This document shows, piece after piece, positions 27,848 through 57,402 of a DNA stretch of 64,000 bases. The DNA lies in contig NZ_CP083558.1 in the NCBI RefSeq assembly GCF_025144465.1, positions 1-64,000 on the forward strand, read 5' to 3'. Origin of the DNA: Leisingera sp. S132. Its GTDB lineage: Bacteria > Pseudomonadota > Alphaproteobacteria > Rhodobacterales > Rhodobacteraceae. Numbering within the stretch: position 1 is the first letter of the stretch; every line of letters starts with the position of its first letter. The notes beneath the pieces were generated by a model. The model did no database searches and was not told the DNA's origin. It saw only the letters and a list, made by a program, of their open reading frames with translations. A program made the translations under genes and the position numbers.

Positions 27848-27897
27848 GTCATCATCACGAAAGACAAAAAAACAGCGGCCCGCGAATCGCTTTGGAC

Positions 27898-27926
27898 TTG
27901 CGGTTACAGGCTCCGGCCACTAACTT
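27898..27926 (+). promoter_or_regulatory. Promoter of the repABC antisense RNA
   Basis: TTGCGG (27898-27903), a 17-base spacer and TAACTT (27921-27926) face opposite to repABC, with transcription expected to begin near 27932, just before the predicted antisense RNA. Confidence 0.5.
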
Positions 27927-27931
27927 GAGGG

Positions 27932-27985
27932 TGCTAGAAACAAGTTGGTCTCGTGGAGCTTCGGTTCTGCGGGGCCTTCTTTTTT
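27932..27985 (+). ncRNA. Counter-transcribed antisense RNA (incompatibility RNA) of repABC
   Basis: The repB-repC gap encodes, on the strand opposite to repC, an RNA of roughly 55 bases ending in a strong intrinsic terminator: a 13-bp stem (27947-27959 with 27964-27976, including several G-U pairs) capped by a UUCG tetraloop and followed by TTCTTTTTT. repABC plasmids use such an RNA to repress RepC synthesis and set copy number and incompatibility. The 5' end is predicted from the promoter boxes and may shift by a few bases. Confidence 0.75.
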
Positions 27986-28019
27986 GCCTGCTCTGTGCCT
28001 CCTAAGTTGTTGTTATCAT

Positions 28020-29036
28020 TTATTCTTCGCCGCGCGACTGCCAGCGTGCGTGAAGCTCTTCAATCAGTGTTTGCGCCTCTGCCTCCAGCCAGTCGGCAAA
28101 GCCGCCGCCGGGCAGTTCCAGGCTGACGCCCTTGGCGGTGCGGCGCAGGGTGGCGCTGCGCAGCCCATCCACGGTCAGCGGCTGGCTGAGGGTGCGCGCC
28201 TTGGCGGGTTTGGCCGGTTTCTGCGGGGCAGGGGCGGCGCCAGCGGCGCTGAACACCGCCTCAAACGCCAGAACCGAAGGATCGGCGGGTTCAGCCTCGG
28301 CGGTGCCGTTGACGGCCCGCATGGTGAAATCGTCGTATTCCTTCTGGGCGATGGCAATCAGCCCCTCCTGACTGGTGCCGCTGGCGGCAATTGCCTTGGC
28401 CAGCGCGTCCCAACGGGGGCGGCCGATGCCCTGAGCCGGGCCGATGGCGCGGATCAGATCGGGGCCCACCGCCTCGGCAATGGCGATGGCCATGGAGACG
28501 GAGGATTTGGTGACGGTCAGCACCTCGGCGACCTGCGACTGGTTGCCGAAACCGTTTTCGACCAGCTCCTGCGCGAACAGCGCCTTTTCGATGAAGGAGA
28601 GGTCGCGGCGCGCCATGTTTTCGGAAATCTGCGCACGCACGGCGGCGTCATCATCCAGAGTGGCGACCAGGGCGCGGACCTTGGTGACCTTGTCGGAGGC
28701 GCGGATCGCCTCCAGCCGGCGGCGGCCGTAGACCAGCAGGTAGCGGTCGGCCTCAGACGGGTGGCGGCGCACCAGGATCGGCACGGTCTGGCCGTTGGCC
28801 TCAATCGCGTCGCGCAGGTCGTGGATGTCGTTGGGGTCGAGCCGGTCGTGGACGCGGGTGTCCTCGATCTGATGCGGTTCCAGATCCCAGACGCGGTGCG
28901 AATCCACCGCGTCGCGGGCCGAGCGCAGGGCGCGGTTGCTGGACATCATCGGCGTCGCCGGGGCAGGGGAGGAGACCGGCGCGCCGGCCGCGGCCAGGCT
29001 GTCGAGCATCGAGAGGCGGGATTTCTTGCTGGTCAT
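28020..29036 (-). CDS. repB: Plasmid partition protein RepB (ParB family)
   Basis: A 338-residue ParB-like protein that binds parS. The ParB/Srx nuclease-like domain (about 60-150) contains IEANGQTVPILVRRHPSEADRYLLVYGRRRLEAIRA, and ENMARRDLSFIEKALFAQEL is the helical part before the helix-turn-helix (about 180-215, NQSQVAEVLTVTKSSVSMAIAIAEA). It overlaps repA by four bases (ATGA). Its target parS lies just past repC. Confidence 0.95.
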   Translation of the reverse strand: MTSKKSRLSMLDSLAAAGAPVSSPAPATPMMSSNRALRSARDAVDSHRVWDLEPHQIEDTRVHDRLDPNDIHDLRDAIEANGQTVPILVRRHPSEADRYLLVYGRRRLEAIRASDKVTKVRALVATLDDDAAVRAQISENMARRDLSFIEKALFAQELVENGFGNQSQVAEVLTVTKSSVSMAIAIAEAVGPDLIRAIGPAQGIGRPRWDALAKAIAASGTSQEGLIAIAQKEYDDFTMRAVNGTAEAEPADPSVLAFEAVFSAAGAAPAPQKPAKPAKARTLSQPLTVDGLRSATLRRTAKGVSLELPGGGFADWLEAEAQTLIEELHARWQSRGEE

Positions 29037-30220
29037 GGGCGCCCCCAGGTTTCCTGAATGAGCTGGCTGATTTCGTCGTTCACCGCGTTCAGGCTTTCGA
29101 CCGCGCGGTCATAGGTGGAGCGGGTGAAAGCGCTGCGTTCGACCTCGTATAGGGTCTGTTTTGTGAGGCCTGCGTCGGAGATTGCGGTGGATTTCAGCAT
29201 CGGCGCATTCAGCACCTTGTCGCCGTACATGGTGCGCAGGAAGGCAACGATGCGGTTCTGCGGCGCGTCCGACGGCTCGTAGCGCGTGAGCAGGTAGCGC
29301 ATCCAGTCGTGGCTCATGTCGGCGCCGGACTGGGCGATCACGTCCATCAGGTCGGCGGTCATGCGCAGGAACTGCGACATCGACATCACGTCGAGCATTT
29401 CCGGGTGGATGGTGACCAGCACGCCGGTGGCAGCGGAGAGCGCCGACATGGTCAGGAAGCCAAGCTGTGGCGGGCAGTCGATCACCACCACGTCATAGTC
29501 GGAATCGACCTGTGTCAGAGCCTCTTTGACCCGGAAAAAGAACAGCCCGGCGCTGCCCTGCGCGAGGGCGCGGGGGGTGTCGTGCTCAAACTCCATCAGT
29601 TCGAGGTTGCCGGGAATGAGATCGAGATTCGGGATGTATGTCTTGCGGATCACCGAGGAAATCGGCGCCGGGTCGTCATAGCGGATGGCATCGTACAGCG
29701 TGCCGCCGTCCTTGAGGTCGAACTCCGGCTGGACGCCGTGCAGCGCGGTGAGCGATGCCTGCGGGTCGAGGTCGATCGCCAGCACCCGGTAGCCCTTGAG
29801 CGCGAGGCGCTGCGCCAGATGGGCGGAGGTGGTGGTCTTGCCGGAGCCGCCCTTGAAGTTCATCACGCCGATGATCTGCATATGGTCGCCGTCGCGGCGG
29901 CCGGGCAGGTAATCGCCGGGCTTGCGGGCGGTTTTTTCCAGCAGTTCGCGCAGTTCGCGGATGTCCTCGGCGGAATACTGGCGGCGGTTGCCGGCGGTCA
30001 GCTCGGGCGAGGGGCCCTTGCCGTCCAGATGCAGCTTGCGCAGGTAGGAATCATTCACGCCCAAGAGGCTTGCGGCCTCGCCGGAGGTGAATTTGCGCAT
30101 GGTCTTGGAGGCATTCGGCGGGAACAGGCTTTCGCGCTGCGCGTGCAGCTGGGCCGCAATCCATTCGGAATGCTGGCGGATCACCGCATTGAGATCCTCA
30201 GGTGTGTATGTATGATCCAT
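29033..30220 (-). CDS. repA: Plasmid partition ATPase RepA (ParA family)
   Basis: A 395-residue ParA-type ATPase. An N-terminal helix-turn-helix region (about 42-70, FTSGEAASLLGVNDSYLRKL) precedes the deviant Walker A KGGSGKTT (123-130). Walker A' and B regions follow (YRVLAIDLDPQASLT, VVIDCPPQLGFLTM). In repABC systems it moves plasmid copies with RepB and represses the operon. It is the first gene of repA-repB-repC; a promoter and inverted-repeat operator lie immediately upstream. Confidence 0.95.
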   Translation of the reverse strand: MDHTYTPEDLNAVIRQHSEWIAAQLHAQRESLFPPNASKTMRKFTSGEAASLLGVNDSYLRKLHLDGKGPSPELTAGNRRQYSAEDIRELRELLEKTARKPGDYLPGRRDGDHMQIIGVMNFKGGSGKTTTSAHLAQRLALKGYRVLAIDLDPQASLTALHGVQPEFDLKDGGTLYDAIRYDDPAPISSVIRKTYIPNLDLIPGNLELMEFEHDTPRALAQGSAGLFFFRVKEALTQVDSDYDVVVIDCPPQLGFLTMSALSAATGVLVTIHPEMLDVMSMSQFLRMTADLMDVIAQSGADMSHDWMRYLLTRYEPSDAPQNRIVAFLRTMYGDKVLNAPMLKSTAISDAGLTKQTLYEVERSAFTRSTYDRAVESLNAVNDEISQLIQETWGRP

Positions 30221-30384: not shown

Positions 30385-31593
30385 TCAGCGGCTGGGAAAC
30401 AGGCCGGGCATCCAGTCTCCGGCCAGGGTGGCCGGGAAGGCCAGCTGCAGGGGCGCGCGCTGGGTTGGCGAGGAGAGGGCGCCGGATGCCAGCAATCCGG
30501 CGGTCACCTTGCGGGCCTGGCGGTCGCTGACGCCAAGCAGGCCGTGCACGCTTCCGCGCTCCAGTTTGCCCAGTGTCAGAGCCTCGCGCATCACCGTTTC
30601 GGCGCCGGTCAGCAGGCGGCCTGCGCGGATTTCACCCTGGCACCAGGCCTCAACCCGGGCGCGCAGGGCCTGCGGCTGCATCAGCTGCTCCATGAAGCGG
30701 ACCTGATCCAGCGCGGTGTCCAGGAAGAAGGCGGCAAATTCTGCCAGCCGCTGCTCCGACAGGTTGCCGCGCCCGTCGGCGCCGCCGTGGCGGGGCTCAT
30801 CCGCGGCCATCAGGCGCTGTTTGTACTCGGCCTCCTTGCGGGCGAGGCCGCGGGAGGCGGACCACAGGCCCTCGGAATTCACGTTCTGGCGCAGCATGGC
30901 GTGGGCCACCATGCGCGACACCCGCCCGTTCAGGTCGAGGAAGGGGTGCACCCAGACCAGCCGGTGATGGGCGCAGGCGGTGGCGATGATGGCGCCGCTG
31001 CGGCCCTGGGTGCCATACATCTTGCGCATATGGGCCAGCAGCCGCGCCACCGCGCCGGGGCTGGGGGCGACGTGCTTGCCCACCTGCACATAATCCGTGC
31101 GGAAGGCGCCGGGGATGATCCGGGTCTCCGTGCCGTCGGGGCCGCGCGTGACGAGCAGGCTGGCGGGCAGATTCTCGCAGAACCGGCGGTGGATCTCCTG
31201 CAGCACGGCGGGATCGAGCGGGTGGCCGGGCAGCCCGCCCTCATCAATCCATTTCTGCACCGCGATATGGGCAACCGCCTCCAGCTGCAGATCGCGCTTG
31301 GCCTGATCCTGGCTGAAATCCTGATTGAGCGCGCGTTCGATGTCGACCGGGTGGGTGTTGTGGCCCTCGATCAGGTTCGAGTAGTAGCAGTTCATCGACC
31401 GCACCAGGCCGGCCAGCGGGGTGCGGACCGCCTCTGGCAGCGCGGCGCGCAGGGCGGAGGAGGCCATCGCCAGCTCCACCGCCAGATCGTTGAGGGCAGG
31501 GCGGTGCCGGGAGGCTTCTTCGGGGATCAGCGGCTCGACGATGGTGATCGGCTCGCCATCATCCGCCAGGTTGGTTGGCCTGTCCGCCGCCAT
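30385..31593 (-). CDS. Fic-domain protein (probable AMPylator) with variant active-site motif
   Basis: A 402-residue Fic/DOC protein, a family that usually transfers AMP from ATP to target proteins. The N-terminal inhibitory helix motif S72-NLI-E76-G77 (SNLIEG) is present, as in self-inhibited class II Fic enzymes. The core motif reads HPFLDLNGR at 216-224, where the canonical form is HPFx(D/E)GNGR, so the Gly before Asn is replaced by Leu. Catalytic His216 and the final Arg remain. The C-terminus (about 345-400) looks like a winged helix (GSVHGLLGVSDRQARKVTAGLLASGAL). It lies next to repA, a place where plasmid-maintenance genes are common. ATG 31593 is adopted; an upstream ATG at 31644 gives a repeat-encoded N-terminus. 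Confidence 0.85.
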   Translation of the reverse strand: MAADRPTNLADDGEPITIVEPLIPEEASRHRPALNDLAVELAMASSALRAALPEAVRTPLAGLVRSMNCYYSNLIEGHNTHPVDIERALNQDFSQDQAKRDLQLEAVAHIAVQKWIDEGGLPGHPLDPAVLQEIHRRFCENLPASLLVTRGPDGTETRIIPGAFRTDYVQVGKHVAPSPGAVARLLAHMRKMYGTQGRSGAIIATACAHHRLVWVHPFLDLNGRVSRMVAHAMLRQNVNSEGLWSASRGLARKEAEYKQRLMAADEPRHGGADGRGNLSEQRLAEFAAFFLDTALDQVRFMEQLMQPQALRARVEAWCQGEIRAGRLLTGAETVMREALTLGKLERGSVHGLLGVSDRQARKVTAGLLASGALSSPTQRAPLQLAFPATLAGDWMPGLFPSR

Positions 31594-31689
31594 GCATATC
31601 CCTGTTCCGGTTTCGGGGTATGACGCCCGTTTGTTCCTGTTCAAGTTCCGTTTTATAGCCCGATTCCGGCTGCCGGGAAACAGGATAAA

Positions 31690-45429: not shown

Positions 45430-47532
45430 ATGGATGAGACACCCGACTGCCAGCCGGCTGGCCTTGGACGTTTTCCCTTTTTGCGTAACGGCCATGACAG
45501 CCTGGACGGGCTTGCAGGCGAGATTGTGGAGCTGAAGGACCTGCTGCTGGACATTCAGGCGCTGGAGGCAAAAGGCAGCCGCAGCCAGATCGCCCGGCAG
45601 CTGAAGGAACTGGACGAGTTCAAGCCCAGCGTCACGATGATCGGGCAGATCAAATCCGGCAAGACCTCGCTGGTCAATGCGATGGTGGCCCGGCCCGGGC
45701 TGCTGCCTGCTGATGTGAACCCCTGGACCTCTGTTGTCACCTCGCTGCATCTGAATGCCCCGCGCAAGGAGGGCGACCCGGTGGCCTCCTTCCAGTTCTT
45801 CAACGGTGACGAGTGGGACCATCTGGTCTCCAACGGCGGCCGGATCGGCGAACTGTCGATGCGGGCGGGCGCCGATGAGGAGCTGCAGAAGATCCAGTTG
45901 CAGATTGCGGAAATGCGCGAAAAGACCCGCAAGCGGCTGGGGCGGCGGTTTGAGCTGCTGCTGGGCCAGAAGCATGATTACCGGCATCTGGATGACGACC
46001 TGATGCAGCGCTATGTCTGCCTGGGCGACGATTTCGAGATGGCGGGCAGCAGCGACCAGCAGGGCCGTTTTGCCGATATCACCAAATCCGCCGACCTGTT
46101 CCTGCCGCTGCCCTCGCTGCCGGTGCCGCTGTGCCTGCGCGACACGCCCGGCGTCAACGATACCTTCCTGATGCGCGAGCAGATCACCATCAAGTCGCTG
46201 CGCAACAGCCGCCTGTGTGTGGTGGTGCTGTCCGCCTCGCAGGCGCTGAGCTCGGTCGATATGGGGCTGATCCGGATGATCTCCAACGTGCGGTCGGAGG
46301 GGATCGTGATCTTCGTCAACCGGATTGACGAGCTGTCGGACCCCGCGACCCAGATCCCGGACATCCGCGACAGCATCCTGACGACGCTGGAAAAGATGAA
46401 CGGGCCGGAAAACCCCAGGATCGTTTTCGGCAGCGCGTTGTGGGCCAATGCGGCGCTGGCGCCGGACACCCATCCGCTGAGCGGGGACAGCGCCGCTGTG
46501 CTGCGGCAGTATGCCGGGCCGGAGGCAGGCGCCGACGGGCAGGATGTGCTGAGCGATGCGGCGCGGATGTGGCAGCTGTCCGGCGTGCCGGAACTGTTCG
46601 AAACCATCGGCGCGCGGATTGCCGAAGGCGCCGGCGCGCGGCTGCTGTCCGAGGTGCGCCAGCGGGCCGCCAACCAGGTGTCCAGCATGAAGGCGGCCTC
46701 GACCGTGGCGTCGATGCGGATCGACGGCAACCGGATTTCGGTGATTGAGCCCGCCGCGCTGAGCCAGCTGCTGCGGCGGCTGGAGACCGTGAGCATGGCG
46801 CAGATGGATACCGCGCTGGACCAGGTGTTCGCCACCTTCTCCTCGCGGGTGGACCAGGCGCATAACAAGTTTCTGGAGCGGGCGGTGGCCTCCCTGCTGC
46901 AGCATCTGGAGAACTACGGCGAGAACGAAACCTGGCAATATACGCCGGACGGGCTGCGGATCCTGCTGCGCTCCAGCTACCAGGTGATGCGCAAGAACCT
47001 GATGGCGGCCTGCACCCAGGTCTACAGCGATGCGGCCTCGGCGATCCATGACACCTATCAGCAGGCGGTTTCCATTCAGGTCAGCGATTTCCGCATTGCG
47101 CCCGCGGCGGTGCCCGAGGTGCCGCCGCCGGTGGCGATCGGCGCCACCATCGCGCTGGACCTGCAGACCTCCTGGTGGAAGGGCTGGTGGCAGCGCCGCC
47201 GCGGATACCGCGCCTATGCCAGCGGCTATTACGACCTGATCAAGGCGGAGACGGCGCCGATCATCCACGAGCTGAAGGAACAGCAGGCGGCGGAGATCCG
47301 GCAGGACGCCCGCGAGCGGCTGATGGCGTTCTTCACCGAGCAGCGGGAGCTGCTGATGGACGTGGCCGAGAAGACCCGGATCAGCATGAATGACTTGAAT
47401 AACCTGTTCGGCATCAATGCCCAGCAGGAGCGGGCGGAGCTGTTGGAGCTTCTGCTCAAGGAACTGGCATCAGAGGACGCGGAGCCGGTCGCAGAACCGG
47501 CCCGGGCAGCACGTAAAGGAGCCGCGGCATGA
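45430..47532 (+). CDS. Dynamin-like large GTPase
   Basis: A 700-residue GTPase. G1 is GQIKSGKTS (72-80), a candidate G2 Thr lies in NPWTSVVT (98-104), G3 is DTPG (238-241) and G4 is NRID (297-300). About 160 residues, including a charged helical insertion, separate G1 and G3. The long C-terminal half is predicted helical, as in dynamin stalks. An aromatic-basic patch W582-W-K-G-W-W587-Q-R-R-R lies between two long helices and could insert in a membrane like a dynamin paddle. No signal peptide or clear membrane helix is present. ATG 45430 with AAGGA upstream is preferred over TTG 45397. It overlaps the second GTPase gene by four bases, the tandem arrangement common for bacterial dynamin-like pairs. 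Confidence 0.82.
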   Translation: MDETPDCQPAGLGRFPFLRNGHDSLDGLAGEIVELKDLLLDIQALEAKGSRSQIARQLKELDEFKPSVTMIGQIKSGKTSLVNAMVARPGLLPADVNPWTSVVTSLHLNAPRKEGDPVASFQFFNGDEWDHLVSNGGRIGELSMRAGADEELQKIQLQIAEMREKTRKRLGRRFELLLGQKHDYRHLDDDLMQRYVCLGDDFEMAGSSDQQGRFADITKSADLFLPLPSLPVPLCLRDTPGVNDTFLMREQITIKSLRNSRLCVVVLSASQALSSVDMGLIRMISNVRSEGIVIFVNRIDELSDPATQIPDIRDSILTTLEKMNGPENPRIVFGSALWANAALAPDTHPLSGDSAAVLRQYAGPEAGADGQDVLSDAARMWQLSGVPELFETIGARIAEGAGARLLSEVRQRAANQVSSMKAASTVASMRIDGNRISVIEPAALSQLLRRLETVSMAQMDTALDQVFATFSSRVDQAHNKFLERAVASLLQHLENYGENETWQYTPDGLRILLRSSYQVMRKNLMAACTQVYSDAASAIHDTYQQAVSIQVSDFRIAPAAVPEVPPPVAIGATIALDLQTSWWKGWWQRRRGYRAYASGYYDLIKAETAPIIHELKEQQAAEIRQDARERLMAFFTEQRELLMDVAEKTRISMNDLNNLFGINAQQERAELLELLLKELASEDAEPVAEPARAARKGAAA

Positions 47533-48464
47533 CGAACCCGCAGCCATTGGACCGCAAACCCCGGGTCGCCATCATGGGCGAATTCAGCGCGGGCAAAAGC
47601 ACCCTGTCGAACCTGCTCTTGGGGCGGCGCATCCTGCCGGAGAAAGTGACGGCAACCCGGCTGCCGCCGGTCTGGATCACCGAAGGAGAGGCGCCACCCG
47701 AGCGCAAGGCGCTGGACGGCAGCCTGCATCCGGTCTCGCTGGAGGCGCTGGAAGCGGTGCCGCTGGAAGAGACGCTTTATGTGCAGATCAGCTGCGAGGC
47801 GCCGGTGCTGGAGGAATGCGACCTGATCGACTTTCCCGGCATCTCCGACCCCAACATGCCGCCCGAGGTCTGGGAACGGATGCTGGCAGAGGTGGACTGC
47901 GTGCTGTGGTGCACCCATGCGACCCAGGCCTGGCGCCAGTCGGAGGCGGCGGCCTGGGGGCTGGTGCCGGAGATGGTGCGCCAGCGCAGCCTGCTGCTGA
48001 TCACCCGGTTCGACAAGCTGACGACGCCGCTGGACAAGCTGCGGGTGCAGACAAGGGTGTCGCGGGAGACCGAAGGCCAGTTTGCCGGCGTCTGCCCGAT
48101 CTCGCTGACCCAGGCGCTGGACGCGGACCCGGAAAGCGCCGCATGGGAAACTTCGGGCGCGCAAGGATTTGCCGCGGCGCTGGAGACCATCGTGACAGCC
48201 GCCCGCGACGGCAGCGCGCCTGCGGTGGCAGCACCCGTCCCCGCTGCCGCTGCCCAGTTGGTGCAGCCGGTGCAGCAACCCGCAGCGGCGGAGCCGGCGC
48301 CAGCCGCCCAAGGCACGCCCCAGGCGGCCAGCCCGCAGGAGGGGCAGCCCGGCCGCGTCATGCCGCGCCGGGTGCGTCCGCAAGGCGCCAAGCGCACGCC
48401 GCGCCCCGATGCGCGCCGGGATGCGGATCTGGCCGCCCTGCGCAGGGAATTGCTGGAGAGCTGA
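47529..48464 (+). CDS. Second GTPase of the dynamin-like pair, with C-terminal low-complexity tail
   Basis: A 311-residue protein. Its GTPase domain (about 1-215) shows G1 GEFSAGKST (17-25), a Thr-rich G2 loop (KVTATRLP), G3 DFPG (101-104) and a degenerate G4 TRFDKL (159-164). From about 215 it becomes an Ala/Pro/Gln-rich linker ending in a short basic tail (MPRRVRPQGAKRTPRP). It lacks the long stalk of the first GTPase, so it may act as a small partner. Translation is coupled to that gene through an ATGA overlap. Confidence 0.75.
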   Translation: MTNPQPLDRKPRVAIMGEFSAGKSTLSNLLLGRRILPEKVTATRLPPVWITEGEAPPERKALDGSLHPVSLEALEAVPLEETLYVQISCEAPVLEECDLIDFPGISDPNMPPEVWERMLAEVDCVLWCTHATQAWRQSEAAAWGLVPEMVRQRSLLLITRFDKLTTPLDKLRVQTRVSRETEGQFAGVCPISLTQALDADPESAAWETSGAQGFAAALETIVTAARDGSAPAVAAPVPAAAAQLVQPVQQPAAAEPAPAAQGTPQAASPQEGQPGRVMPRRVRPQGAKRTPRPDARRDADLAALRRELLES

Positions 48465-48550
48465 AAAAGAGGCTTGTAATCCCGGGCCCGTTGCGGTTGT
48501 GAATTGACCTGCGGGCCGGGCGGAACCGGCCCATCAGGCAGGGGCGCATT

Positions 48551-48916
48551 ATGACGGTATCGGAAGAACTGGACAGTCTGCACGCTCAGTTTCCCGCCTG
48601 CGGGACGGTGGCCTATGCGGACCTGGCTGCGGGCATGGTGCTGGTGGCCAACAGCCAATCGCCGCTGGACCGCCATGCGCTGGATGCGCTCTGTGCCCAG
48701 GCCGGCTGCCTGCTGGGTGAAAACAGCGCGCCGCCCCTTGGGGCCGGGGCGCCTGCCTTTGCGCTGGCGCGGGAGCCGGGCCGGGTGATGCTGGCCTTCA
48801 AATCGCCCCTACAGCCGACCGATGCGCTGCTGTGCCTTGCCGCGCCGGATCTGGATCTGGGCGCGTTTCAGGCCGCCGCCCGCGACTGCCTGGCCCGGAT
48901 CACCGCAGATGGCTGA
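48551..48916 (+). CDS. Unrecognised small protein of the GTPase/kinase locus
   Basis: A 121-residue protein that I do not recognise. It has no signal peptide or membrane helix. The alternating hydrophobic strands and helices (GTVAYADLAAGMVLVANSQSP, RVMLAFKSPLQPTDALLCLAAP) and its length recall the Roadblock/LC7 fold that often partners small GTPases in bacteria, but no motif proves this. It follows the second GTPase gene by 86 bases and precedes another unrecognised gene in the same direction. Codon use and frame conservation look like a true gene; the ATG has a weak GGGGCG upstream. Confidence 0.6.
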   Translation: MTVSEELDSLHAQFPACGTVAYADLAAGMVLVANSQSPLDRHALDALCAQAGCLLGENSAPPLGAGAPAFALAREPGRVMLAFKSPLQPTDALLCLAAPDLDLGAFQAAARDCLARITADG

Positions 48917-48955
48917 CGGACCGGCGCACCACGACCTTCGAACGGGAATTTCAAA

Positions 48956-49744
48956 GTGACTCACGACGACGCAATTGCCGGCAACCTGGCGGCCCTCGGC
49001 GCCCGGCAGACCGTGTTCCGGGATGGCAGACGGGTTCTGTCCAACGGGCTGTTCCCGCCGCCGCTGCCCGCCCTGCTGCAGGAAATCGGCACCACGGTGC
49101 TGCAGCGGCAGCTGACCTTCCGCGCCGGGGCCAGCGCGCTGTCCTTTGTGGTGTCCGAACGGCGGCTGATGGCGCTGGTCTCTGCCAGCAGCGATCTGGA
49201 AGAGGTGCAGCATCTGGCCGGCCAGGGCCTGTCCCATGACCAGCCGGAGGTGCTGGAAGCGGTTGCCGCGGCCATGGTGCGGCTGGCGCAGGCCGAAGAC
49301 CCGCTGACGGTGGAGACCGCCTTTGCCGCGCCCGGCAGCAGCCCGGCCGGGCTGGGACTGCCGGCCGCGATGCTGGAAGAGGTGATGGAGCTGGACCCGG
49401 GCGAGCAGGACCGGCCGATGGAATTTTTCATCGAGGCTGCCGCCGGGATGTATTCCGCCTGTCTGCTGCACGCGGGCAGTGCCTGGCTGGGCGGCGGCGA
49501 GGATGCAGCGGTGCTGGCCGCGCTGCAGAAGATTGCCGATGCGCAGTGGGAGCGTTTCCAGGCGTCCTATGCCAAACATGCAGCGCTGACGGAAACGCCG
49601 CGGCTGATCTCGCTGGGTCCGGTTCTGGACGGCGGCGAATGCGTGTCCGTGGTCTGGGCCGATGGCGAATGCGCCCTGTTCGCCCATGGCGAGGCGGATC
49701 TGGCCGGGCTGCACGGCATCTGGCAGCGGGTTTTCACCCTGTAA
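48956..49744 (+). CDS. Unrecognised 262-residue protein of the GTPase/kinase locus
   Basis: This protein starts with GTG at 48956, preceded by GGGAA. It is acidic, soluble and without recognisable motifs. The N-terminal half (to about 130) repeats the strand-helix pattern of the preceding small protein (LTFRAGASALSFVVSERRLMALVSASSDLEEV), and the C-terminal half ends LGPVLDGGECVSVVWADGECALFAHGEADLAGL, again a Roadblock-like strand pair. It might therefore carry two related modules. It closes the plus-strand operon; its stop codon lies in the loop of the following hairpin. Confidence 0.6.
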   Translation: MTHDDAIAGNLAALGARQTVFRDGRRVLSNGLFPPPLPALLQEIGTTVLQRQLTFRAGASALSFVVSERRLMALVSASSDLEEVQHLAGQGLSHDQPEVLEAVAAAMVRLAQAEDPLTVETAFAAPGSSPAGLGLPAAMLEEVMELDPGEQDRPMEFFIEAAAGMYSACLLHAGSAWLGGGEDAAVLAALQKIADAQWERFQASYAKHAALTETPRLISLGPVLDGGECVSVVWADGECALFAHGEADLAGLHGIWQRVFTL

Positions 49745-49755
49745 GGTGAAAACCC
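49728..49755. terminator. Bidirectional hairpin at the junction of the two convergent operons
   Basis: GGGTTTTCACC and GGTGAAAACCC form a perfect 11-bp stem with a six-base loop CTGTAA that contains the TAA stop of the plus-strand gene. The symmetrical T and A tracts in the arms would work on both strands. It separates the plus-strand GTPase genes from the minus-strand kinase operon. Confidence 0.6.
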
Positions 49756-49783
49756 ATTCTGTTGCCGCGCAGCTTGGCCGTCC

Positions 49784-51103
49784 TCAGGCGGCGAGCTGCG
49801 CCTGCATGTCCCGTTTCAGCTGCAGCAGGATGCTGGTGGCATCAAACAGAGATGTGCCGTCCTGTTCCACCTGGATCAGCTGAATGAGGTCTTCCGCTTC
49901 CGAGACCGCGCCGCGGATCTCTGTCAGTGCGTTGCCGCCGTTGCCGCCATACTCCTCAAAATGGCTGTCCAGCCATTGCACCGACTTCAGAGCGGTGCGG
50001 ATCAGCTGGCTGCTGCTGCTGCCGGAGCCGTCCTGCAGGGCCTGGCCCATGCTGCGCCCCTGCGCGGACAGGTAGTCCAGCGCCTGATCAAAGGCCTGCC
50101 GGGTGTCCGTGCTGAGCGCCGCGTCCTGCAGTTCCGCGGAGTCTGCGGCCGCCACGGGCGCCTCTGCCACCGGGGCAGGGCGGTCCGGTGCAGGTGTTTC
50201 CGCCGCAAGCGGAGCGTCCGGCTCTGCCTGGAGTGCCGCCGGGGGGGGCGGTGCGGCGGTGTCCTCTGCCGGAGCGGCGGCTGCGGGCGCGGGGGCGTAT
50301 TTCGCCAGCAGCACACCGGCCTGATCCAGCGCCGCCTGCCGCCGCAGCTTCACCTCATGCATGATGGCGGAGATCAGCGCCTGGCCGCCGGAGCGGCGCA
50401 GCCGGTCGCGGTCCACCGTGCCATCGGGCGCCCTTGCGGCCTGTGCCTCCAGCGCGGCCAGCGGCAGGATGCCGTTGAAGTGTTCGGAAGCGGCGTCCTG
50501 AACAGCTGCCATTGCGGGGGCCAGCCGGTCCTGGGCCGCCAGCGCATCCGCCTTGGTCACCAGAAGGAAAGCGCCGTCCTTCATCTGTTCCGGCGCGCGC
50601 GCCCAGGCGGCCTGTTCAGCCGGGGTGAAATCCTGGGTGCACCACAGGGCAATGCCGGTCCGCCCCGCGGCCCAGGGCACTGCGCGTTCCAGTGCGGCGG
50701 CATCCGGAGCGGAAATCTCCAGGAGGCTGATCTGGTTCAGGGCGGGCAGGGGCAGCTGCGCCTCGGCAAAGACCGCACCCCGGGCGGCCAGCGCGCCGGT
50801 GTCGAAGCCGGGCAGGCTGAAGCGGCTGCCATCCGCCAGCACCCCAGCACAGGCCGCGGTTCCGCCGCCGCTGATCTGCAGGGTGGGCAGAGCAACACCC
50901 GCCGGGATCACCTGGCTGCCCAGCAGCAGGTTGGCGACGCTGGACTTGCCCGAACCGGACAGGCCGAACAGGGTGACGGCCACCGGTTTTTCCAGCCGCT
51001 CCAGCAGCGTCCCGGTGCCGGCCTGCAGGCGGGCCGGGATCCGGCCCTCTGCCAGTGCGTGCCGCAGCGATGCGGCCGCGGCTGCGGTTTCCGCTTGGGT
51101 CAT
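49784..51103 (-). CDS. P-loop GTPase-like protein lacking a visible G3 motif
   Basis: A 439-residue protein. G1 is GLSGSGKSS (47-55) and G4 is LVTKAD (about 183-188). Where the DxxG motif should be, after the beta strand NQISLLEI, the sequence reads SAPDAAAL, so the catalytic Asp-x-x-Gly is absent. From about 265 a 70-residue Ala/Pro-rich linker leads to a C-terminal helical domain (about 335-439, QAFDQALDYLSAQGRSMGQAL). It may bind nucleotide without normal hydrolysis and act as a regulatory partner of the two dynamin-like GTPases encoded opposite. It is the last gene of the kinase operon, two bases after the phosphatase gene. Confidence 0.65.
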   Translation of the reverse strand: MTQAETAAAAASLRHALAEGRIPARLQAGTGTLLERLEKPVAVTLFGLSGSGKSSVANLLLGSQVIPAGVALPTLQISGGGTAACAGVLADGSRFSLPGFDTGALAARGAVFAEAQLPLPALNQISLLEISAPDAAALERAVPWAAGRTGIALWCTQDFTPAEQAAWARAPEQMKDGAFLLVTKADALAAQDRLAPAMAAVQDAASEHFNGILPLAALEAQAARAPDGTVDRDRLRRSGGQALISAIMHEVKLRRQAALDQAGVLLAKYAPAPAAAAPAEDTAAPPPPAALQAEPDAPLAAETPAPDRPAPVAEAPVAAADSAELQDAALSTDTRQAFDQALDYLSAQGRSMGQALQDGSGSSSSQLIRTALKSVQWLDSHFEEYGGNGGNALTEIRGAVSEAEDLIQLIQVEQDGTSLFDATSILLQLKRDMQAQLAA

Positions 51104-51105
51104 GC

Positions 51106-52056
51106 CTAGCGCCCTTTCCCGGCCAACCGGACCACCTTGGCATCCTGCTCCGGCAGGGGCGGCCCGTCATAGGAGTTGCTGTTCATGGCCACCACGCGGG
51201 TTGCGCTGGCCGATTGGTCGCCCACCAGGTCAACCGGCTTGCGGCGCATCTTGCGGGTCACCGGCTTGTTGTGGTTGAGCTTGATCACCGCAAAGGAAAT
51301 GTTGTCCTGATCCGGGTCCGCCAGATCATCCAGCGCCGCCAGCAGCCGTTCGACGATTTCCGCGCTCTTGCGGCGGCGGTACTTGTGCAGGATCTTCTCG
51401 ATGCGCGCGTCCTCGAGGAACTGCAGCCCGTCGCTGGAGACAACCACCAGATCGCCGACCTCCAGCCGGAACGGGGCCTTGGGGCAGTCGGTGCGGGTCA
51501 CCCGGTCGCCCAGGATCACAGAGGTCAGGCAGTTGCGGTCGGGATGGTCGCGGCCGGCTTCGGCGTCCAAGAGGCCCGCCTTGACCATCATGTCGATCTG
51601 CGGCGCCATCGAGTGGTCCTCGTTCAGCTGCTGCAGCTTGCCGCCGCGCATCAGATAGAGCGGCGAGTCGCCGATCGACAGCCAGTACAGGCGGTCCTCG
51701 ATCATCACCACCGACACCAGGGTCGCGCCCATGCCGCGGACGCTGGGATTGTCCTGGACATATTCCTGCACGCAGGTGTTGGCCTCTGCCGCGGCGTGGG
51801 TCAGGTGATAGGGGATCTGCTTTTCGTATTCGGCGAAGTTGACGCTTTCGAACTTCAGCTTGCTGAAGGCCTCGGTCACCACCATCTTGGAGGCGACATC
51901 GCCGGCCGCGTGGCCGCCCATGCCGTCCGCCAGGATGGCCATGCCGATGTCGGTGCCCGCCGGAAAGTCGGTGATGATGGCGTCTTCCTGGTAGTCGCGC
52001 GCGCCCTGGCAGATGGCGGCGGCAACGTCAAAGCGCGGTTCAGGCGATTTCCACAT
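51106..52056 (-). CDS. PP2C-family Ser/Thr protein phosphatase
   Basis: A 316-residue metal-dependent phosphatase that probably reverses the kinase of this locus. PP2C motifs are clear: RDYQED (20-25), DGMGGH (44-49), GMGATLVSVVMIEDRLYWLSIGDS, VVVSSDGLQ and PDQDNISFAVIK. The catalytic domain fills about 10-250. A 55-residue basic and polar tail follows (KPVTRKMRRKP ... EQDAKVVRLAGKGR), which may bind a partner. The start overlaps the FHA gene by 17 bases. The ATG at 52056 is accepted because the N-terminal strand FDVAAAICQGARD is intact. Confidence 0.92.
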   Translation of the reverse strand: MWKSPEPRFDVAAAICQGARDYQEDAIITDFPAGTDIGMAILADGMGGHAAGDVASKMVVTEAFSKLKFESVNFAEYEKQIPYHLTHAAAEANTCVQEYVQDNPSVRGMGATLVSVVMIEDRLYWLSIGDSPLYLMRGGKLQQLNEDHSMAPQIDMMVKAGLLDAEAGRDHPDRNCLTSVILGDRVTRTDCPKAPFRLEVGDLVVVSSDGLQFLEDARIEKILHKYRRRKSAEIVERLLAALDDLADPDQDNISFAVIKLNHNKPVTRKMRRKPVDLVGDQSASATRVVAMNSNSYDGPPLPEQDAKVVRLAGKGR

Positions 52057-52867
52057 GGTCCGCCTCCTGCCCGCCAGCGCTGGTCCAGTTGAAGTCTTTG
52101 CCGCAGAGCGCCATGAAGCGCAGCGTGGTTTCGCCCAGGCGGATCAGGTCGCCGCTTTGCAGAACCTCGTTGCTGATCACCGGCTGGCCGTTCAGGCGCA
52201 CGATGTTGCTCTTGCCGCCGTGGCCCAGGTAGAACTGCGAGCTTTCGGGATCAAAGACGATGGCGGCATGGTTGCTGCGGGAGATCGCGGTGTCGCCGAA
52301 ATCCAGCGCAACCGCCTGATCCTCGCCGCGGCCGATGGCCGACATGCCGGCCTTGAGCGTGAAGCTCTCGCCATAGCCCGGGCCGTCAGCGACCACGATC
52401 CAGCCCACCGGGAACTTGGTGTCGCGGACCGGGGCAGCGGCGCCGGTGCTGTCGAACAGGTTGACGACATCGCCGTCGGAGGTGTCAAAGCCCAGGAGGC
52501 GGGTCTTGGCGCGGCGCTTGCGGGCCGGGGCGGCGCTGACATGCGCGGTCAGGTCGGGCAGGTCGCCGCCGGGCTGGGGCATCTGCGCCGCCGCGCCAGC
52601 GGGCGGGGCAGCCGGGGCGGCGGCGGCCGGGTCCAGGTCCCAGATGCCGGCTGCCGGATCCGCCGCGGCGGGCGCGGCTGTGTCCGGCTGGCTGTCTGCG
52701 GCCGGGCCTGCCTGCGGGTCCAGATCCAGTTCCACGGAGCGGGTGTGCTGGGCGACGGCCTTCAGCACTTCCTGCTGCATCGTCTCGTCTGCGACCTGCA
52801 GCCTTTCCATCGGGGCGGGCTCAGAAAGCGGGTCCTGCCGTCCGATAAGTTTTCCGAAAAATCCCAT
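52040..52867 (-). CDS. FHA-domain protein
   Basis: A 275-residue cytoplasmic protein expected to bind phosphothreonine. The C-terminal FHA domain (about 155-260) has the core GR (179-180) followed by GEDQAVAL, the SRSNHA motif (196-201) and NIVRLNG (221-227) with the key Asn. The first 30 residues are predicted helical, then a long Ala/Pro/Asp linker (about 50-110) carries repeated acidic clusters (ELDLDPQ, IWDLDP), and a basic patch RKRRAKTR lies at 116-123. Kinase, phosphatase and FHA genes in one operon imply a phospho-switch. The start 52867 has AAGG upstream. Confidence 0.88.
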   Translation of the reverse strand: MGFFGKLIGRQDPLSEPAPMERLQVADETMQQEVLKAVAQHTRSVELDLDPQAGPAADSQPDTAAPAAADPAAGIWDLDPAAAAPAAPPAGAAAQMPQPGGDLPDLTAHVSAAPARKRRAKTRLLGFDTSDGDVVNLFDSTGAAAPVRDTKFPVGWIVVADGPGYGESFTLKAGMSAIGRGEDQAVALDFGDTAISRSNHAAIVFDPESSQFYLGHGGKSNIVRLNGQPVISNEVLQSGDLIRLGETTLRFMALCGKDFNWTSAGGQEADHVEIA

Positions 52868-52969
52868 GTCGTCTGCCTTTTTTGGTTGTTACAGGCGTCC
52901 GTGCAGTCACGGCAGGCGCCCGGTTTTCCCTATCTGCGGAGAGCCGCCCGTCCGCGGCCCCTGCGGCCT

Positions 52970-52997
52970 GCCATGCCCCCGCTACCGGGGGCATGGC
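52970..52997 (-). other. Strong hairpin between the LysM binding-protein gene and the FHA gene
   Basis: GCCATGCCCCC and GGGGGCATGGC form a perfect 11-bp stem with a six-base loop. It lies 12 bases after the stop of the first LysM protein and 100 bases before the FHA gene. No T-run follows on the minus strand, so it may be a processing or partial termination site dividing secreted sensors from cytoplasmic parts of the operon. Confidence 0.5.
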
Positions 52998-53008
52998 GGT
53001 TGCCCGGA

Positions 53009-54106
53009 TCAGCTGCCGATCTTGTTGAACTCGGCCAGGCTGTCGGCGATGATCGCGTACCATTCGCCGCTTTCGCGCATCTCGTTCAGGCCCTTGTTCA
53101 GAAGGGTCAGATAGACGCGGCCGCGCGGGTTGGTCTTATGCGTCACGAAGTGGATCGCCTGCAGTTGCGACAGGTTGGAGTTCAGCTGCACCTTACCTTC
53201 TGCCTCGGCAACTTCGCGGACCGCGGCATCGCCTGCTTCGAGGTCCAGCAGCGCCATGTCGGCCTCGCCGGTCACCAGCTTGCGGATGCATTCAACCGCA
53301 GAGGACGGATGCACCAGGGAGATCACCGGTTCCACCAGGCCCTCGCCGGACAGCTCAGCCAGGGACCAGCCTTCGGGGCGGCAGATCTTGGCGCCGGCGT
53401 AATCCGCATAATCCTTGATGTTGGCATAGGGGTTGTCGGCCATGGTCCAGTGGGCGGACACCGATTCATAGATCGGCAGCGAGAAGTTCAGCTGGGTGCA
53501 GCGGTACTTGGTGTCGGCGTCGGTGTTTTCGAGGTTGGAGCAATCTGCCGGCTTGTACCAGGCGATCGACACGTCGAAGGCGCCGAGCGGCAGCAGGGTG
53601 TCGAAATGGGCCTTCCAGTCGTCCACGAAGCTGAGGTTGTATTCACGGTCGTTGCCGCCGCGGTTCAGTGCAGTTGTGGCCAGGCGCACCAGCATGCCGC
53701 CGCCCTTGAGGCTTTCGCCGGTGAAGGGTTCCCAGCCGTTGCCGGAGACCATCTTGATCGGCGGCTCATAGATGCTGGACTTGGCCCGCTTGGCCTGTTT
53801 TTCCTCTTCCTGCGCGATGATGTCGGTGACATTGCTGTCGGCGGTCAGGCGGCCGTCTTCACAGGGGATCTGCAGGACGGTGCCGGCCTCCAGGCTGTTG
53901 GGGTTGGAAATCGCGTTGCGGTTGGCGTTGAAGATCATCTGATAGTCAAAGGAGCCATAGGCGGCCTGGGCGATTGAGCCGAGGCTGTCGCCGTCCTGCA
54001 CGGTGTAGGGGGCACAGGCCTCCTGCGCGGCTGCCGAAGTGGAGATGAACAGGGCGGCGGAAACGGTGGTTGCGCTGTATTGAACCAGGGATTTGATCAT
54101 CGACAT
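53009..54106 (-). CDS. Secreted LysM + solute-binding-like protein (sensor 1)
   Basis: A 365-residue protein with a signal peptide (MSMIKSLVQYSATTVSAALFISTSAAA). A LysM domain follows (about 33-82: YTVQDGDSLGSIAQAAYGS ... LEAGTVLQIP), which normally binds peptidoglycan. From about 115 the chain resembles family 3 periplasmic binding proteins (MVSGNGWEPFTGESLKGGGMLVRLATTAL, FDVSIAWYKPADCSN, GEADMALLDLEAGD). It would sit in the periplasm anchored on the wall and sense a small ligand. No ABC permease is nearby, so a signalling role is likely. A paralogue lies directly upstream. ATG 54106 with AAGGAA upstream is used; 54100 is also possible. Confidence 0.82.
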   Translation of the reverse strand: MSMIKSLVQYSATTVSAALFISTSAAAQEACAPYTVQDGDSLGSIAQAAYGSFDYQMIFNANRNAISNPNSLEAGTVLQIPCEDGRLTADSNVTDIIAQEEEKQAKRAKSSIYEPPIKMVSGNGWEPFTGESLKGGGMLVRLATTALNRGGNDREYNLSFVDDWKAHFDTLLPLGAFDVSIAWYKPADCSNLENTDADTKYRCTQLNFSLPIYESVSAHWTMADNPYANIKDYADYAGAKICRPEGWSLAELSGEGLVEPVISLVHPSSAVECIRKLVTGEADMALLDLEAGDAAVREVAEAEGKVQLNSNLSQLQAIHFVTHKTNPRGRVYLTLLNKGLNEMRESGEWYAIIADSLAEFNKIGS

Positions 54107-54189
54107 GAGAGTTAGTTCCTTTTCAATGGGGCACCGCCGTTGCGCGGGGGGCTGCTGGCAGTGGGTCAAGGTTGCTGTTGGGGGGTAGG

Positions 54190-55353
54190 TCAGTTGGTGA
54201 GGGTTCTGATTTCGCGTTGCAGAGCTTTGGAGACGATGGCGTACCATTCGCCGGAAACGGACATGTCCTTCAGTCCGCTGTTGAGCAGATCCAGGGTTTC
54301 CTGGGCCCGGGGGTGATCCTTGTGAACGATGGCGTGCAGGGATTTCACCTCGCCAAGGTTCGGGTTCTCCTTGATCTGGCCGGCCAGGCCCATGGTGGCG
54401 AGCGTGTCGCTGGCAACCAGGGTATCGAGGGCGACCACATCGACAGCGCCGGCGGCCAGAGCGGTAAAGCACTCCGCGATCTGGACCGGGCGGTAGAATT
54501 TCACGGTTTGCTCCGTCAGGCCCGCGGTATCCAGATGGGCCATGGAATAGCCCTCGGGGCGGCAGATCCGGGTGCCCATCAGCGCGCCGTAATCAAAAGC
54601 GGCGGCATAGGGGCTGCCGGTGGCGGCAAAGAAGCCGTCGACCACTTCATAGAAGGGATCGGAGAACCGGTAGTTGTCGCAGCGGAACTTGTCGCCGGCG
54701 GACAGCAGGCCATAGTCGCCGCAGTTGGGCTTCAGCCAGGGGAAGGAGCCTTCGAACGCCATGGCAGGCAGCAGGGTTTCCAGATGCGATTCCCAGTCGT
54801 TGACAAAGGTCACCGAGACCTCGGTCTCCGGCGCGGCGCGCAGGGCGGCGGTTTCGATCAGCTGGGTGAACATGCCGCGGCCGGGCAGGTCCTCGCCGGT
54901 GAAGGGCGGGAAATCATTGCCGGTGATCAGAACCATCGGTTCCGGTGCGGCTGTGGCCGCCGGGGTCTCTGCGGGCACGGCCTCTGCCGCGGCGGTCTCT
55001 GCTGCCGGGGCTTCTGCGGCAGCGGTCTCCGCAGCTGCTGCCTCCTGAACCTCCGCAGCAGGGGCCTCAGCTTCCTGGGCTGCGGACACATCACCCGGCA
55101 GGCTGCCGTCGGCGCAGGGCAGGACCAGCTGCATGCCGATTTCAATGATGTTCGGGTTGCGGCCGATGACAGCGCTGTTGGCGTCGTAGACAACCCGGAA
55201 CCTGGAATGCCCATAGGCCTTCTCGGTGATTTCCCGCAGGTTGTCGCCGGATTTGACCTCGTACACCTGGCAGGCTTCCTGAGCCTGGGCAGACTGTCCG
55301 GCAGCCGCGATGGCGATCAGGGAAGCCCCCATAAATTTAGCAGTATTGCGCAT
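54190..55353 (-). CDS. Secreted LysM + solute-binding-like protein (sensor 2)
   Basis: A 387-residue paralogue of the next gene downstream with the same order: signal peptide (MRNTAKFMGASLIAIAAAGQSAQA), LysM (about 29-80, YEVKSGDNLREITEKAYGHS ... IEIGMQLVLP), linker, and a family 3 binding-protein-like domain (LITGNDFPPFTGEDLPGRGMFTQLI; RICRPEGYSMAHLD, shared almost word for word with the paralogue). It differs by a ~50-residue Ala/Glu/Pro linker (about 90-140), which would lift the binding domain further from the wall. Conserved Cys residues near GDKFRCDNY and RICRPEG may form disulfides. Confidence 0.82.
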   Translation of the reverse strand: MRNTAKFMGASLIAIAAAGQSAQAQEACQVYEVKSGDNLREITEKAYGHSRFRVVYDANSAVIGRNPNIIEIGMQLVLPCADGSLPGDVSAAQEAEAPAAEVQEAAAAETAAAEAPAAETAAAEAVPAETPAATAAPEPMVLITGNDFPPFTGEDLPGRGMFTQLIETAALRAAPETEVSVTFVNDWESHLETLLPAMAFEGSFPWLKPNCGDYGLLSAGDKFRCDNYRFSDPFYEVVDGFFAATGSPYAAAFDYGALMGTRICRPEGYSMAHLDTAGLTEQTVKFYRPVQIAECFTALAAGAVDVVALDTLVASDTLATMGLAGQIKENPNLGEVKSLHAIVHKDHPRAQETLDLLNSGLKDMSVSGEWYAIVSKALQREIRTLTN

Positions 55354-55455
55354 TAAATCTGTCCTTCGTGGGTCAGAGAGGCAGAGCTCTCCCGGGGACG
55401 GCCGCCGGTGGGGCTGACCGCCTGATGCTTGTGTTTGGGGAAAGGCTGGCGGGGG

Positions 55456-57402
55456 TTAGCTGTTTCCCGCCAGTTCCAGGCTGGCTGAGGCCGCGGCCCC
55501 GTCGCGCAGGATGTCAAAGGTTGCGGCGGCGGCGCCCTTGTCCTGCAGGGCCTGCAGGATCTCCGCCAGCGACTCGGCGCCGGTCAGAGCGGTGCCGGTT
55601 GCGGTTTCACGCAGCAGCACGTCGCCGGGCTGCAGATCCGCGGAGCCCTGGGCAGCCTGCTGGCTGACGGAGGTGACCCAGGCGCCGTCCTGCATCCGCG
55701 CCTCGAACTGCAGGCCGCTGTTCAGGCCGGTCCGGCGCACCACCGGAACTGCCAGCAGCCCCATTTCGAACCGCTTGTTTTCTGCATCCTTGTAGCGGAT
55801 GGAGGCGCGGGTGTAGCCGTCCGGGTCGATCTGCATTGCGGTCAGCAGCTGCGATGCGAACGGCGAGCCCGCCGTCAGCGGCTGATTGTTGACCGTCAGG
55901 ATTTCCACGCCCGGGGCAATCCAGCTGCCGGTCTTGCTGAGGTCGTTGTTCCCGCCGGTGCCGGTGATGGACACCACCTGCGCCTTGCGGACGGTCTGTT
56001 CCTCATACTCAAAGGGGATCGAGACATCCCACAGTGCATAGCTGACCTCGTGGCCCGCAAAGGGCGCGGGGGCCGCCGCCGGTGCCGGCTGCGCAGGCTC
56101 GGCAGCTGCCGCAGTTTCCTCAGGAACGTCTGCGGGGACCGGTTCTGCCGCCTGCGGAGCAGGTTCGGCAGGGGTTGCAGCTTCTGTTTCTGGCGCAGCT
56201 GCGACGCTGACCGCTTCCGCGGCCGCAGCAGGGGCCGGGTCAGCGGCTGCCGGGGCCGGATCCGCCGCCGGTTCCGCGATTGCCGCGGTTTCAACCGCCG
56301 CCGCGGGCTGCTCTGCCGCTGCATCCGCCTGGGTGTTGCCATAGTAGACGTAGCCAGCGGCGCCCAGACCGGCCAGAACCGCCAGAACGGAGACGGCCGG
56401 AAGGCGGCTGCGCTTCTTTTCCTCATGGGCCGGGGCTGCGGTGCTGTTGGCCGCCTGCGGCGCCGCTGCCGCGGGCTTCTTGCCGTCCAGCATCGCCAGC
56501 CATTCCTCAGCCGATTGCAGGCGCATGGAGGGCTTGGTGTTCATCGCCTTGTCGATGGCCTCCAGGAAGCCCTCGGCATAGCCGTCCACGGCACCGGCCA
56601 GCGGCTCATAGGGGTCCGGGCGCTGTTCGGCGATGGCGACCAGGCGGGCCTGGCCGTTCACCGGCGCCTCGCCGCGGATCACGTGGTAGAGGGAGGCTGC
56701 CAGCGCATAGAGATCGCTGAAGGGGCCCTGTTCGCTGCCGGCAATGTAGAATTCCTGCGGCGAGTAGCCGTCCTTGACGACCCGCAGCGCGGAATGCTTG
56801 CGGCCGTCTTCGCTGGTGTCTTCGCGGGCGGCGCCGAAATCGATCAGCACCGGCTCGCCCTCTGCGGTCAGCAGGATGTTGTCGGGGGAAATGTCGCGGT
56901 GCAGCAGGTTGGCGTCATGCACATACCCGATGGCGTCCAGCAGCTTGCGGGTCATGCTGGTGATCTGCTCCGGCGTCAGTGCGGTTTTCTGATCATCCAG
57001 GATGTCCTGCAGGTCGCGGCCGTCGACATAGTCGATTGCCATATAGGCGGTGTCGTTGTCCTCGAACACCTGATGCACGCCGACGATGTTGGGGTGCTTC
57101 AGCTTGGACAGGCTCTGGGCTTCGCGGATGAAGTGGCGGATGATCGACTTCAGCTCGCTCTGATGCGCCCGGGACCGGGCACTGACCAGCGCGTTGGTCC
57201 GGCGGCAGAAAGCATCCGCAAAGCATTCCTTGATCACCACCGTCCGGTCCAGGCTGTCCTTGGCAAGATAGGTGATGCCGAAGCCGCCGTTGTTCAGAAA
57301 GCGCGTGATGGTGTACTGGCCGTGGAGCAGAGTCGTGCCCGGCTGCAGATCATCCTGTTGATCCGCGTCAACTGAAGTCTCAACAAGCGAATTGAGTGCC
57401 AT
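55456..57402 (-). CDS. Transmembrane Ser/Thr protein kinase with C-terminal PDZ-like domains
   Basis: A 648-residue Hanks-type kinase. The glycine loop is NNGGFGITY (37-45), the catalytic Lys is K58 (VIKE), the catalytic loop is HRDISPDN (168-175) and DFG is at 188-190, so it should be active. A membrane helix (about 333-355, LPAVSVLAVLAGLGAAGYVYYG) separates the cytoplasmic kinase from a long Ala/Pro/Glu linker and about 200 extracytoplasmic residues. These end in two PDZ-like modules (WIAPGVEILTVNNQPLTAG and LQPGDVLLRETATGTALTG). First gene of its operon; GGGAG lies upstream of the ATG. It is probably the receptor linking periplasmic LysM sensors to cytoplasmic FHA, phosphatase and GTPase proteins. 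Confidence 0.9.
   Translation of the reverse strand: MALNSLVETSVDADQQDDLQPGTTLLHGQYTITRFLNNGGFGITYLAKDSLDRTVVIKECFADAFCRRTNALVSARSRAHQSELKSIIRHFIREAQSLSKLKHPNIVGVHQVFEDNDTAYMAIDYVDGRDLQDILDDQKTALTPEQITSMTRKLLDAIGYVHDANLLHRDISPDNILLTAEGEPVLIDFGAAREDTSEDGRKHSALRVVKDGYSPQEFYIAGSEQGPFSDLYALAASLYHVIRGEAPVNGQARLVAIAEQRPDPYEPLAGAVDGYAEGFLEAIDKAMNTKPSMRLQSAEEWLAMLDGKKPAAAAPQAANSTAAPAHEEKKRSRLPAVSVLAVLAGLGAAGYVYYGNTQADAAAEQPAAAVETAAIAEPAADPAPAAADPAPAAAAEAVSVAAAPETEAATPAEPAPQAAEPVPADVPEETAAAAEPAQPAPAAAPAPFAGHEVSYALWDVSIPFEYEEQTVRKAQVVSITGTGGNNDLSKTGSWIAPGVEILTVNNQPLTAGSPFASQLLTAMQIDPDGYTRASIRYKDAENKRFEMGLLAVPVVRRTGLNSGLQFEARMQDGAWVTSVSQQAAQGSADLQPGDVLLRETATGTALTGAESLAEILQALQDKGAAAATFDILRDGAAASASLELAGNS

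Follow-up and report, generated by a model that had tools for sequence, protein, structure and literature searches.

Gene content of the locus

The stretch of DNA analysed here (the window) comprises positions 1 to 64,000 of contig NZ_CP083558.1 from Leisingera sp. S132 (assembly GCF_025144465.1), and carries at 45,430–57,402 ten genes encoding dynamin-type GTPases, a Ser/Thr kinase with a phosphatase and an FHA protein, and secreted proteins with predicted ligand-binding parts. All ten open reading frames (ORFs) were found at about the positions given by a first-pass annotation made from the sequence, and its dynamin pair, PP2C, FHA protein and kinase are borne out by matches above the Pfam cut-offs to Dynamin_N (twice), PP2C_2, FHA and Pkinase.

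The forward strand encodes the large dynamin-like GTPase dyn1 (45430..47532, 700 amino acids (aa), most likely starting at ATG 45430), the small dynamin-type G-domain protein dyn2 (47529..48464, 311 aa), h1 (48551..48916, 121 aa) and h2 (48956..49744). The reverse strand encodes a Hanks-type Ser/Thr kinase (55456..57402, 648 aa), two accessory secreted proteins termed LysM proteins 1 (54190..55353, 387 aa) and 2 (53009..54106, ~365 aa), an FHA-domain protein with a long N-terminal linker (52040..52867, 275 aa), a PP2C-type protein phosphatase (51106..52056, 316 aa) and a P-loop protein related to dyn2 (49784..51103, 439 aa). The two gene runs are convergent and lie 39 bases apart; dyn1 and dyn2 overlap by 4 bases, the PP2C and FHA genes by 17, and a 2-base gap separates the PP2C end from the start of the P-loop gene. 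Nine of the ten ORFs show a coding-type GC distribution by codon position. LysM protein 2 is the one not among them, and its ORF as listed extends far upstream; the gene is conserved in relatives and its start at ATG 54106 was picked by eye. Compared with relative L019, dN/dS ranges from 0.06 to 0.32, indicating that all ten genes are under purifying selection.

Conservation as one collinear operon

The ORFs of 80 loci retrieved with a dyn1 alignment were searched with profiles of the window genes and their Leisingera caerulea and Ruegeria counterparts. These loci are the best 80 of 543 relatives and thus biased to close relatives, and several end at contig edges. The nearest among these best 80 are four Leisingera strains and one Rhodobacteraceae metagenome-assembled genome (MAG), with dyn1 at 97–98%. 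Presence per gene was 80 loci for dyn1 and dyn2, 79 for the P-loop protein, 77 for h1, 75 each for PP2C and h2, 68 for FHA and 63 for the kinase, and 58 loci carry all eight of these core genes. At 72 of the 80, whichever of these genes are present share a strand and follow the collinear order kinase-FHA-PP2C-Ploop-dyn1-dyn2-h1-h2. The remaining eight are L012–L016 and L019, which have the window layout, L020, in which the kinase is flipped, and L078, which has extra dynamin hits upstream. The first-pass annotation had described two operons; given that LysM proteins also occur inside fully collinear operons (L018, L021, L070), the window layout appears to be a local rearrangement of one operon, the simplest history being inversion of one block. 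Its proposal that the parts form one system, which it tied to the two gene runs being found together in other genomes, was upheld by the same 72 relatives.

A less biased count was obtained from 296 family genomes, at least 90% complete and evenly drawn from 295 genera, leaving out one row with a split h1 and any dyn1 row weaker than 1.2e-59, a cut that costs 6 of 86 genomes. Strong matches to dyn1 were present in 80 genomes, to h1 in 69 and to FHA (E<=1e-20) in 68; nearly all genomes with h1 (68 of 69) or FHA (65 of 68) also carry dyn1. Sites of h1 lie within 6 kb of dyn1 in 70 of 77 cases and those of FHA within 12 kb in 64 of 85. The co-occurrence of dyn1 and h1 has a hypergeometric P of ~4e-53, uncorrected for genome relatedness, and gene linkage is beyond chance.

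The eight-gene set is conserved within one family of mostly marine Alphaproteobacteria: a class-level sample with few genomes per order gave matches (E<=1e-15) in 2 of 387 genomes, both from the family itself. One set of chromosome-type neighbours, with an ABC-2 permease, accompanies 28 of the 80 loci, mostly titled Yoonia, Loktanella or uncultured Rhodobacteraceae. In some strains the operon is on a plasmid; on four plasmid records, the annotated genes to either side mainly serve metabolism, transport and regulation. A phage origin was considered and rejected, no relative being found among viral contigs. In a Loktanella MAG (L062 9039–14069), an operon lacking kinase, FHA and PP2C and having a short P-loop ORF lies beside the usual chromosomal neighbours and resembles a truncated copy. 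Split genes were also encountered, h2 as two ORFs in L080, L084 and L066 and dyn2 in L033, presumably through frameshifts or sequencing errors.

The phospho genes also occur apart from the GTPases. Kinase, FHA and PP2C genes are contiguous but away from dyn1 in L093 and, with the kinase as two ORFs, in L092, while L094 has FHA-PP2C away from dyn1 with a divergent kinase and a PBP-OmpA gene ~4 kb off. Conversely, a plasmid of Rhodobacter sp. CZR27 (L007 817–7665) carries two dynamin pairs in tandem, and the stretch read there, which begins at the record start, contains neither a kinase nor an FHA or Roadblock gene. Phospho genes without GTPases and GTPases without phospho genes together show two modules, sensor/phospho and GTPase, that are usually joined. 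The phospho module occurs alone in L092, L093 and L094. Separately, FHA-PP2C-P-loop was seen away from dyn1 in L095 and a solitary h1-like ORF in L096.

Domains and motifs of the components

Kinase (Pkinase 112.2 bits, cut-off 31.7), phosphatase (PP2C_2 43.4, cut-off 24) and FHA protein (FHA 32.2, cut-off 20.7) have the composition of a write-erase-read set. The catalytic residues of the kinase are invariant across 22 rows, and its kinase domain is followed by one hydrophobic segment (residues 334–352, 56347..56403 on the reverse strand), predicted from hydropathy to be transmembrane, and then by a conserved C-terminal domain presumed to be periplasmic. A PDZ region previously assigned to the kinase is doubtful, the matches being weak (Pfam E=0.26; DegP-type NCBIfam E=0.0066), and the first-pass proposal that signals enter through it is conjectural. 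The nearest solved relatives of the FHA protein are mycobacterial proteins including GarA (Rv1827), and OdhI. Its linker carries the motif TR(L/V/M)(I/L)GF in 72 of 73 FHA proteins (near-identical copies counted), the exception being the Ruegeria protein of L006. The residue at +3 after the motif Thr is I or L in all 72 motif copies, and FHA domains prefer I or L at +3. Thr122 (codon 52502..52504, reverse strand) is thus a candidate phospho-site, its phosphorylation being a prediction.

Matches to Dynamin_N reach 41.1 bits for dyn1 and 43.5 bits for dyn2 (cut-off 27). The dyn1 motifs are G1 GQxKxGK[ST] in 89 of 89 proteins, G3 DTPGVND in 86 and G4 NRID in 89, the last by a loose pattern that is NRID or NRVD in 73 and other strings in 16, perhaps matches elsewhere; of the 89 dyn2 proteins, 88 have G1 and 86 have D-x-P-G. 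By Dynamin_N, and for dyn1 also by its G1, G3 and G4 motifs, both proteins qualify by sequence as carrying dynamin-superfamily G domains, and the closest solved-structure relatives of dyn1 are 5owv and BDLP (2j68). The P-loop protein, which matches dyn2 at 28% over the G domain, retains G1 in 81 of 84 members. Just 23 of the 84, however, contain a D-x-(P/A)-G pattern at any position, and 'lEv' stands at the aligned G3 site; the protein probably serves as a degenerate G-domain (pseudo-GTPase) partner. P-loop proteins of ~755–918 aa, nearly twice the usual length, were found in L080–L083, L085 and L087–L090. In three of these loci with upstream DNA covered (L083, L087, L090), no kinase lies beside FHA.

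The two proteins left unrecognised in the first-pass annotation can now be placed in part. No Pfam family was found for h1 or h2; as modelled, h1 shows a Roadblock/LC7 fold, and h2 probably carries domains related to it. For h1, some UniRef entries are named Roadblock/LAMTOR2. Sequence comparison by Pfam and hhalign was insufficient for the Roadblock assignment of h1, which was retained on structure. The h1 profile found nothing among solved-structure sequences, and h2 only rows at E 0.07 and weaker that are unrelated; h2 against Robl_LC7 by sequence likewise gave nothing. Among the structural matches of the second half of h2, phytochrome and Mon1-Ccz1/Fuzzy-Inturned (RabGEF-type) chains score alike in Z and E, and that half can safely be called no more than 'Roadblock/longin/GAF-like'. 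The idea that h1 and h2 are one duplicated family was dropped, as hhalign finds nothing.

The two secreted proteins had been read as LysM sensors. LysM-type secreted proteins are indeed present, one scoring above the LysM cut-off (30.7, cut-off 20.9) and the other LysM-like through NCBIfam PRK11198 (8.7e-7, below the model cut-off), but both also have a solute-binding (SBP_bac_3-like) part, below cut-off, and are better described as solute-binding proteins with a wall anchor than as simple wall sensors. Nor are they core components, since they occur in 11 of the 80 loci. Other loci have a PBP-OmpA cluster (14) or a PilJ cluster (10), so that at least one sensor type is found in 27, and in 26 of these at most 0.61 kb from a core gene. 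One or more members were scanned per sensor-cluster locus: PBP_like_2 and OmpA are both above cut-off in 12 of the 14 PBP-OmpA loci (not L063 or L066), and PilJ in 10 of 10. LysM and OmpA domains bind peptidoglycan, and the LysM and PBP-OmpA types share the joining of a ligand-binding domain to a peptidoglycan-binding one.

Proposed mechanism, alternatives and genomic setting

We posit, with a probability of roughly 0.55, that the locus is a signalling operon placing a dynamin-like GTPase machine under trans-envelope phospho-control. Peptidoglycan-anchored secreted solute-binding proteins (LysM here, PBP-OmpA or PilJ-type elsewhere) would bind a ligand or report wall state and act on the periplasmic C-terminal domain of the one-segment Hanks kinase, which would phosphorylate the near-invariant Thr of the FHA linker. 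The FHA domain may then fold back onto its linker in the manner of GarA/OdhI, or it may recognise phosphorylated sites of the G proteins. The output would be the dyn1-dyn2 pair with its degenerate G-domain partner and h1 with h2, the latter two possibly serving as GTPase co-factors, either as GTPase-activating proteins (GAPs) or as a nucleotide-state scaffold, much as MglB does for MglA; in contrast to that pair, the G proteins here are dynamin-like, and a GAP role for h1/h2 is putative. From the dynamin class, GTP-driven assembly of dyn1 at the inner membrane could tether, remodel or protect the membrane.

Several observations weigh against this reading. The kinase of a second operon copy in the same genome has no transmembrane segment (best 19-residue hydropathy 1.19), nor does the Leisingera caerulea kinase, so sensing is not trans-membrane in that kinase type. 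None of the three sensor types is present in the DNA covered at 53 of the 80 loci (54 without L063), suggesting that sensors are dispensable or located elsewhere. The kinase was not seen in 17 of 80 loci, some ended by contig edges, and L083, L087, L090 and L091 start at FHA despite room upstream. In the 296-genome survey, dyn1 has no h1 or FHA gene nearby in 13 of the 80 genomes that carry it, and 21 of 85 FHA sites and 7 h1 sites lie away from it. On the GTPase side, dyn2 is too short to fit a stalk, Pfam results of 39 h1 members (E<=1) include no Robl_LC7 match, the h1 profile aligns weakly to Robl_LC7 (hhalign 5.7% probability, E 0.0067, 111 columns), and Roadblock folds also act as scaffolds without GAP activity. 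All links between the components are putative, being read from sequence and structure.

The closest described logic comes from two directions. Conservons (AGPS, CvnA-D) are operons that encode, besides a sensor histidine kinase and a Ras-like GTPase, a Roadblock/LC7 protein and one protein without known function (PMC13343842, PMC4316618). The present operon likewise combines a sensor kinase and GTPase with a Roadblock/LC7 protein and a functionally uncharacterised one, and may work like a conservon-type G-protein system. It lies outside that class, in that its kinase is of Hanks type and its GTPases carry Dynamin_N; conservons have a histidine kinase and a Ras-like GTPase and are found in Actinomycetota, whereas here FHA and PP2C are added and the distribution is one alphaproteobacterial family. 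For the sensor/phospho half, the nearest described logic, by analogy, is GlnH-GlnX-PknG-OdhI of Corynebacterium, where an FHA protein is the substrate of a Ser/Thr kinase under the control of a periplasmic binding protein (PMC9769921). The conserved N-terminal candidate Thr next to the FHA domain here may serve a switch of the GarA/OdhI kind. The output of the Corynebacterium system is 2-oxoglutarate dehydrogenase, whereas here the kinase itself has a transmembrane segment and its neighbours are dynamins. Like the bacterial dynamins 5owv, BDLP and LeoABC, the locus has two adjacent dynamin-type GTPase genes, with a weak LeoA match; it differs in its short dyn2 and in the addition of a phospho-module, of Roadblock proteins and of a third, degenerate G protein.

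Among the alternatives, the one that survives best, though still unlikely, is a cell-polarity or cell-cycle switch in which the Roadblock/G-protein core would establish polar or septal identity like MglA/MglB, with membrane remodelling secondary. The GTPases are however of dynamin rather than Ras type, and no motility or division genes were recognised by eye in the larger flank clusters or in the loci inspected gene by gene.

Somewhat less probable still is defence against phages or competitors, with the kinase sensing envelope damage and the dynamins resealing or sacrificing membrane. The patchy distribution (80 of 296 genomes) and plasmid location in some strains would fit, as would PADLOC matches of the components, with the kinase domain resembling PD-T4-6/MAD6 among many kinase-domain matches, dyn1 weakly LeoA (34 bits), and LeoBC at 24 bits. 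The kinase matches nevertheless span the general Hanks domain, the plasmid flanks are mostly metabolic, transport and regulatory, the ABC-2 permease neighbour set suggests stable residence, and viral contigs hold no relative.

Kinase, PP2C and FHA are encoded together in the threonine phosphorylation pathway (PpkA/PppA/Fha) of the type VI secretion system (T6SS). The same genome contains, on contig C5, the second operon copy (L009, 5,357–14,607; eight genes, no LysM proteins) and, ~18 kb beyond it, a T6SS locus (L010 12386–19998; C5 ~32.4–40.0 kb) with TagF_N at 76.6 bits, a 1210-aa ORF that is TssM-like by eye, and its own kinase and PP2C, so that the window pair is not the genome's T6SS-linked pair. 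That the kinase/PP2C/FHA set is a detached copy of this pathway still governing the T6SS, with the dynamins as bystanders or placing the apparatus, is improbable despite this similar composition and the related pair on C5, given that the T6SS pair is divergent (277 and 231 bits against the operon models, compared with 514 and 408 for the second copy), that FHA sits near dyn1 at most sites, and that T6SS genes turned up neither among the scanned window proteins (in agreement with the earlier claim of no secretion genes), nor among annotated features of plasmid loci nor, by eye, in the loci inspected gene by gene.

Returning to phospho-control of a dynamin machine, the novelty lies in the composition of the system, most domains being familiar. 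Judged by title and start of abstract, none of the papers listed in searches of an open-access library, which excludes subscription journals and most preprints, concerns such a locus; this accords with the earlier impression that the composition matches no described system. More tentatively, at somewhat under even odds, the operon may represent a new bacterial G-protein signalling class, in which Roadblock/LC7 regulators control dynamin-superfamily GTPases and the switch as a whole takes its input from the periplasm by way of a Hanks kinase, PP2C and an FHA phospho-latch. If so, this would be the first bacterial dynamin machine under Roadblock and Ser/Thr-phosphorylation control. Small Ras-like GTPases (MglA, Rag, conservon GTPases) are the known partners of Roadblock proteins, and to our knowledge the control of bacterial dynamins is mostly unknown. 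A conserved operon uniting dynamins with a reversible phospho-switch and a Roadblock protein would open bacterial dynamin regulation to direct tests, extend G-protein signalling operons past Actinomycetota and past Ras-like GTPases, and give the h1 and h2 families a functional context.

Contig C6, of which the window makes up most, is 71,659 bases long and one of 7 in a 4.69 Mb genome. Profile scans place RepC, RepB and RepA genes at 26597–30220, and C6 is therefore very likely a plasmid; together with a sign change of the GC skew near 26 kb, these genes mark the likely plasmid origin. Adjoining repA, a Fic-domain protein (49.4 bits) is encoded at 30388–31644.

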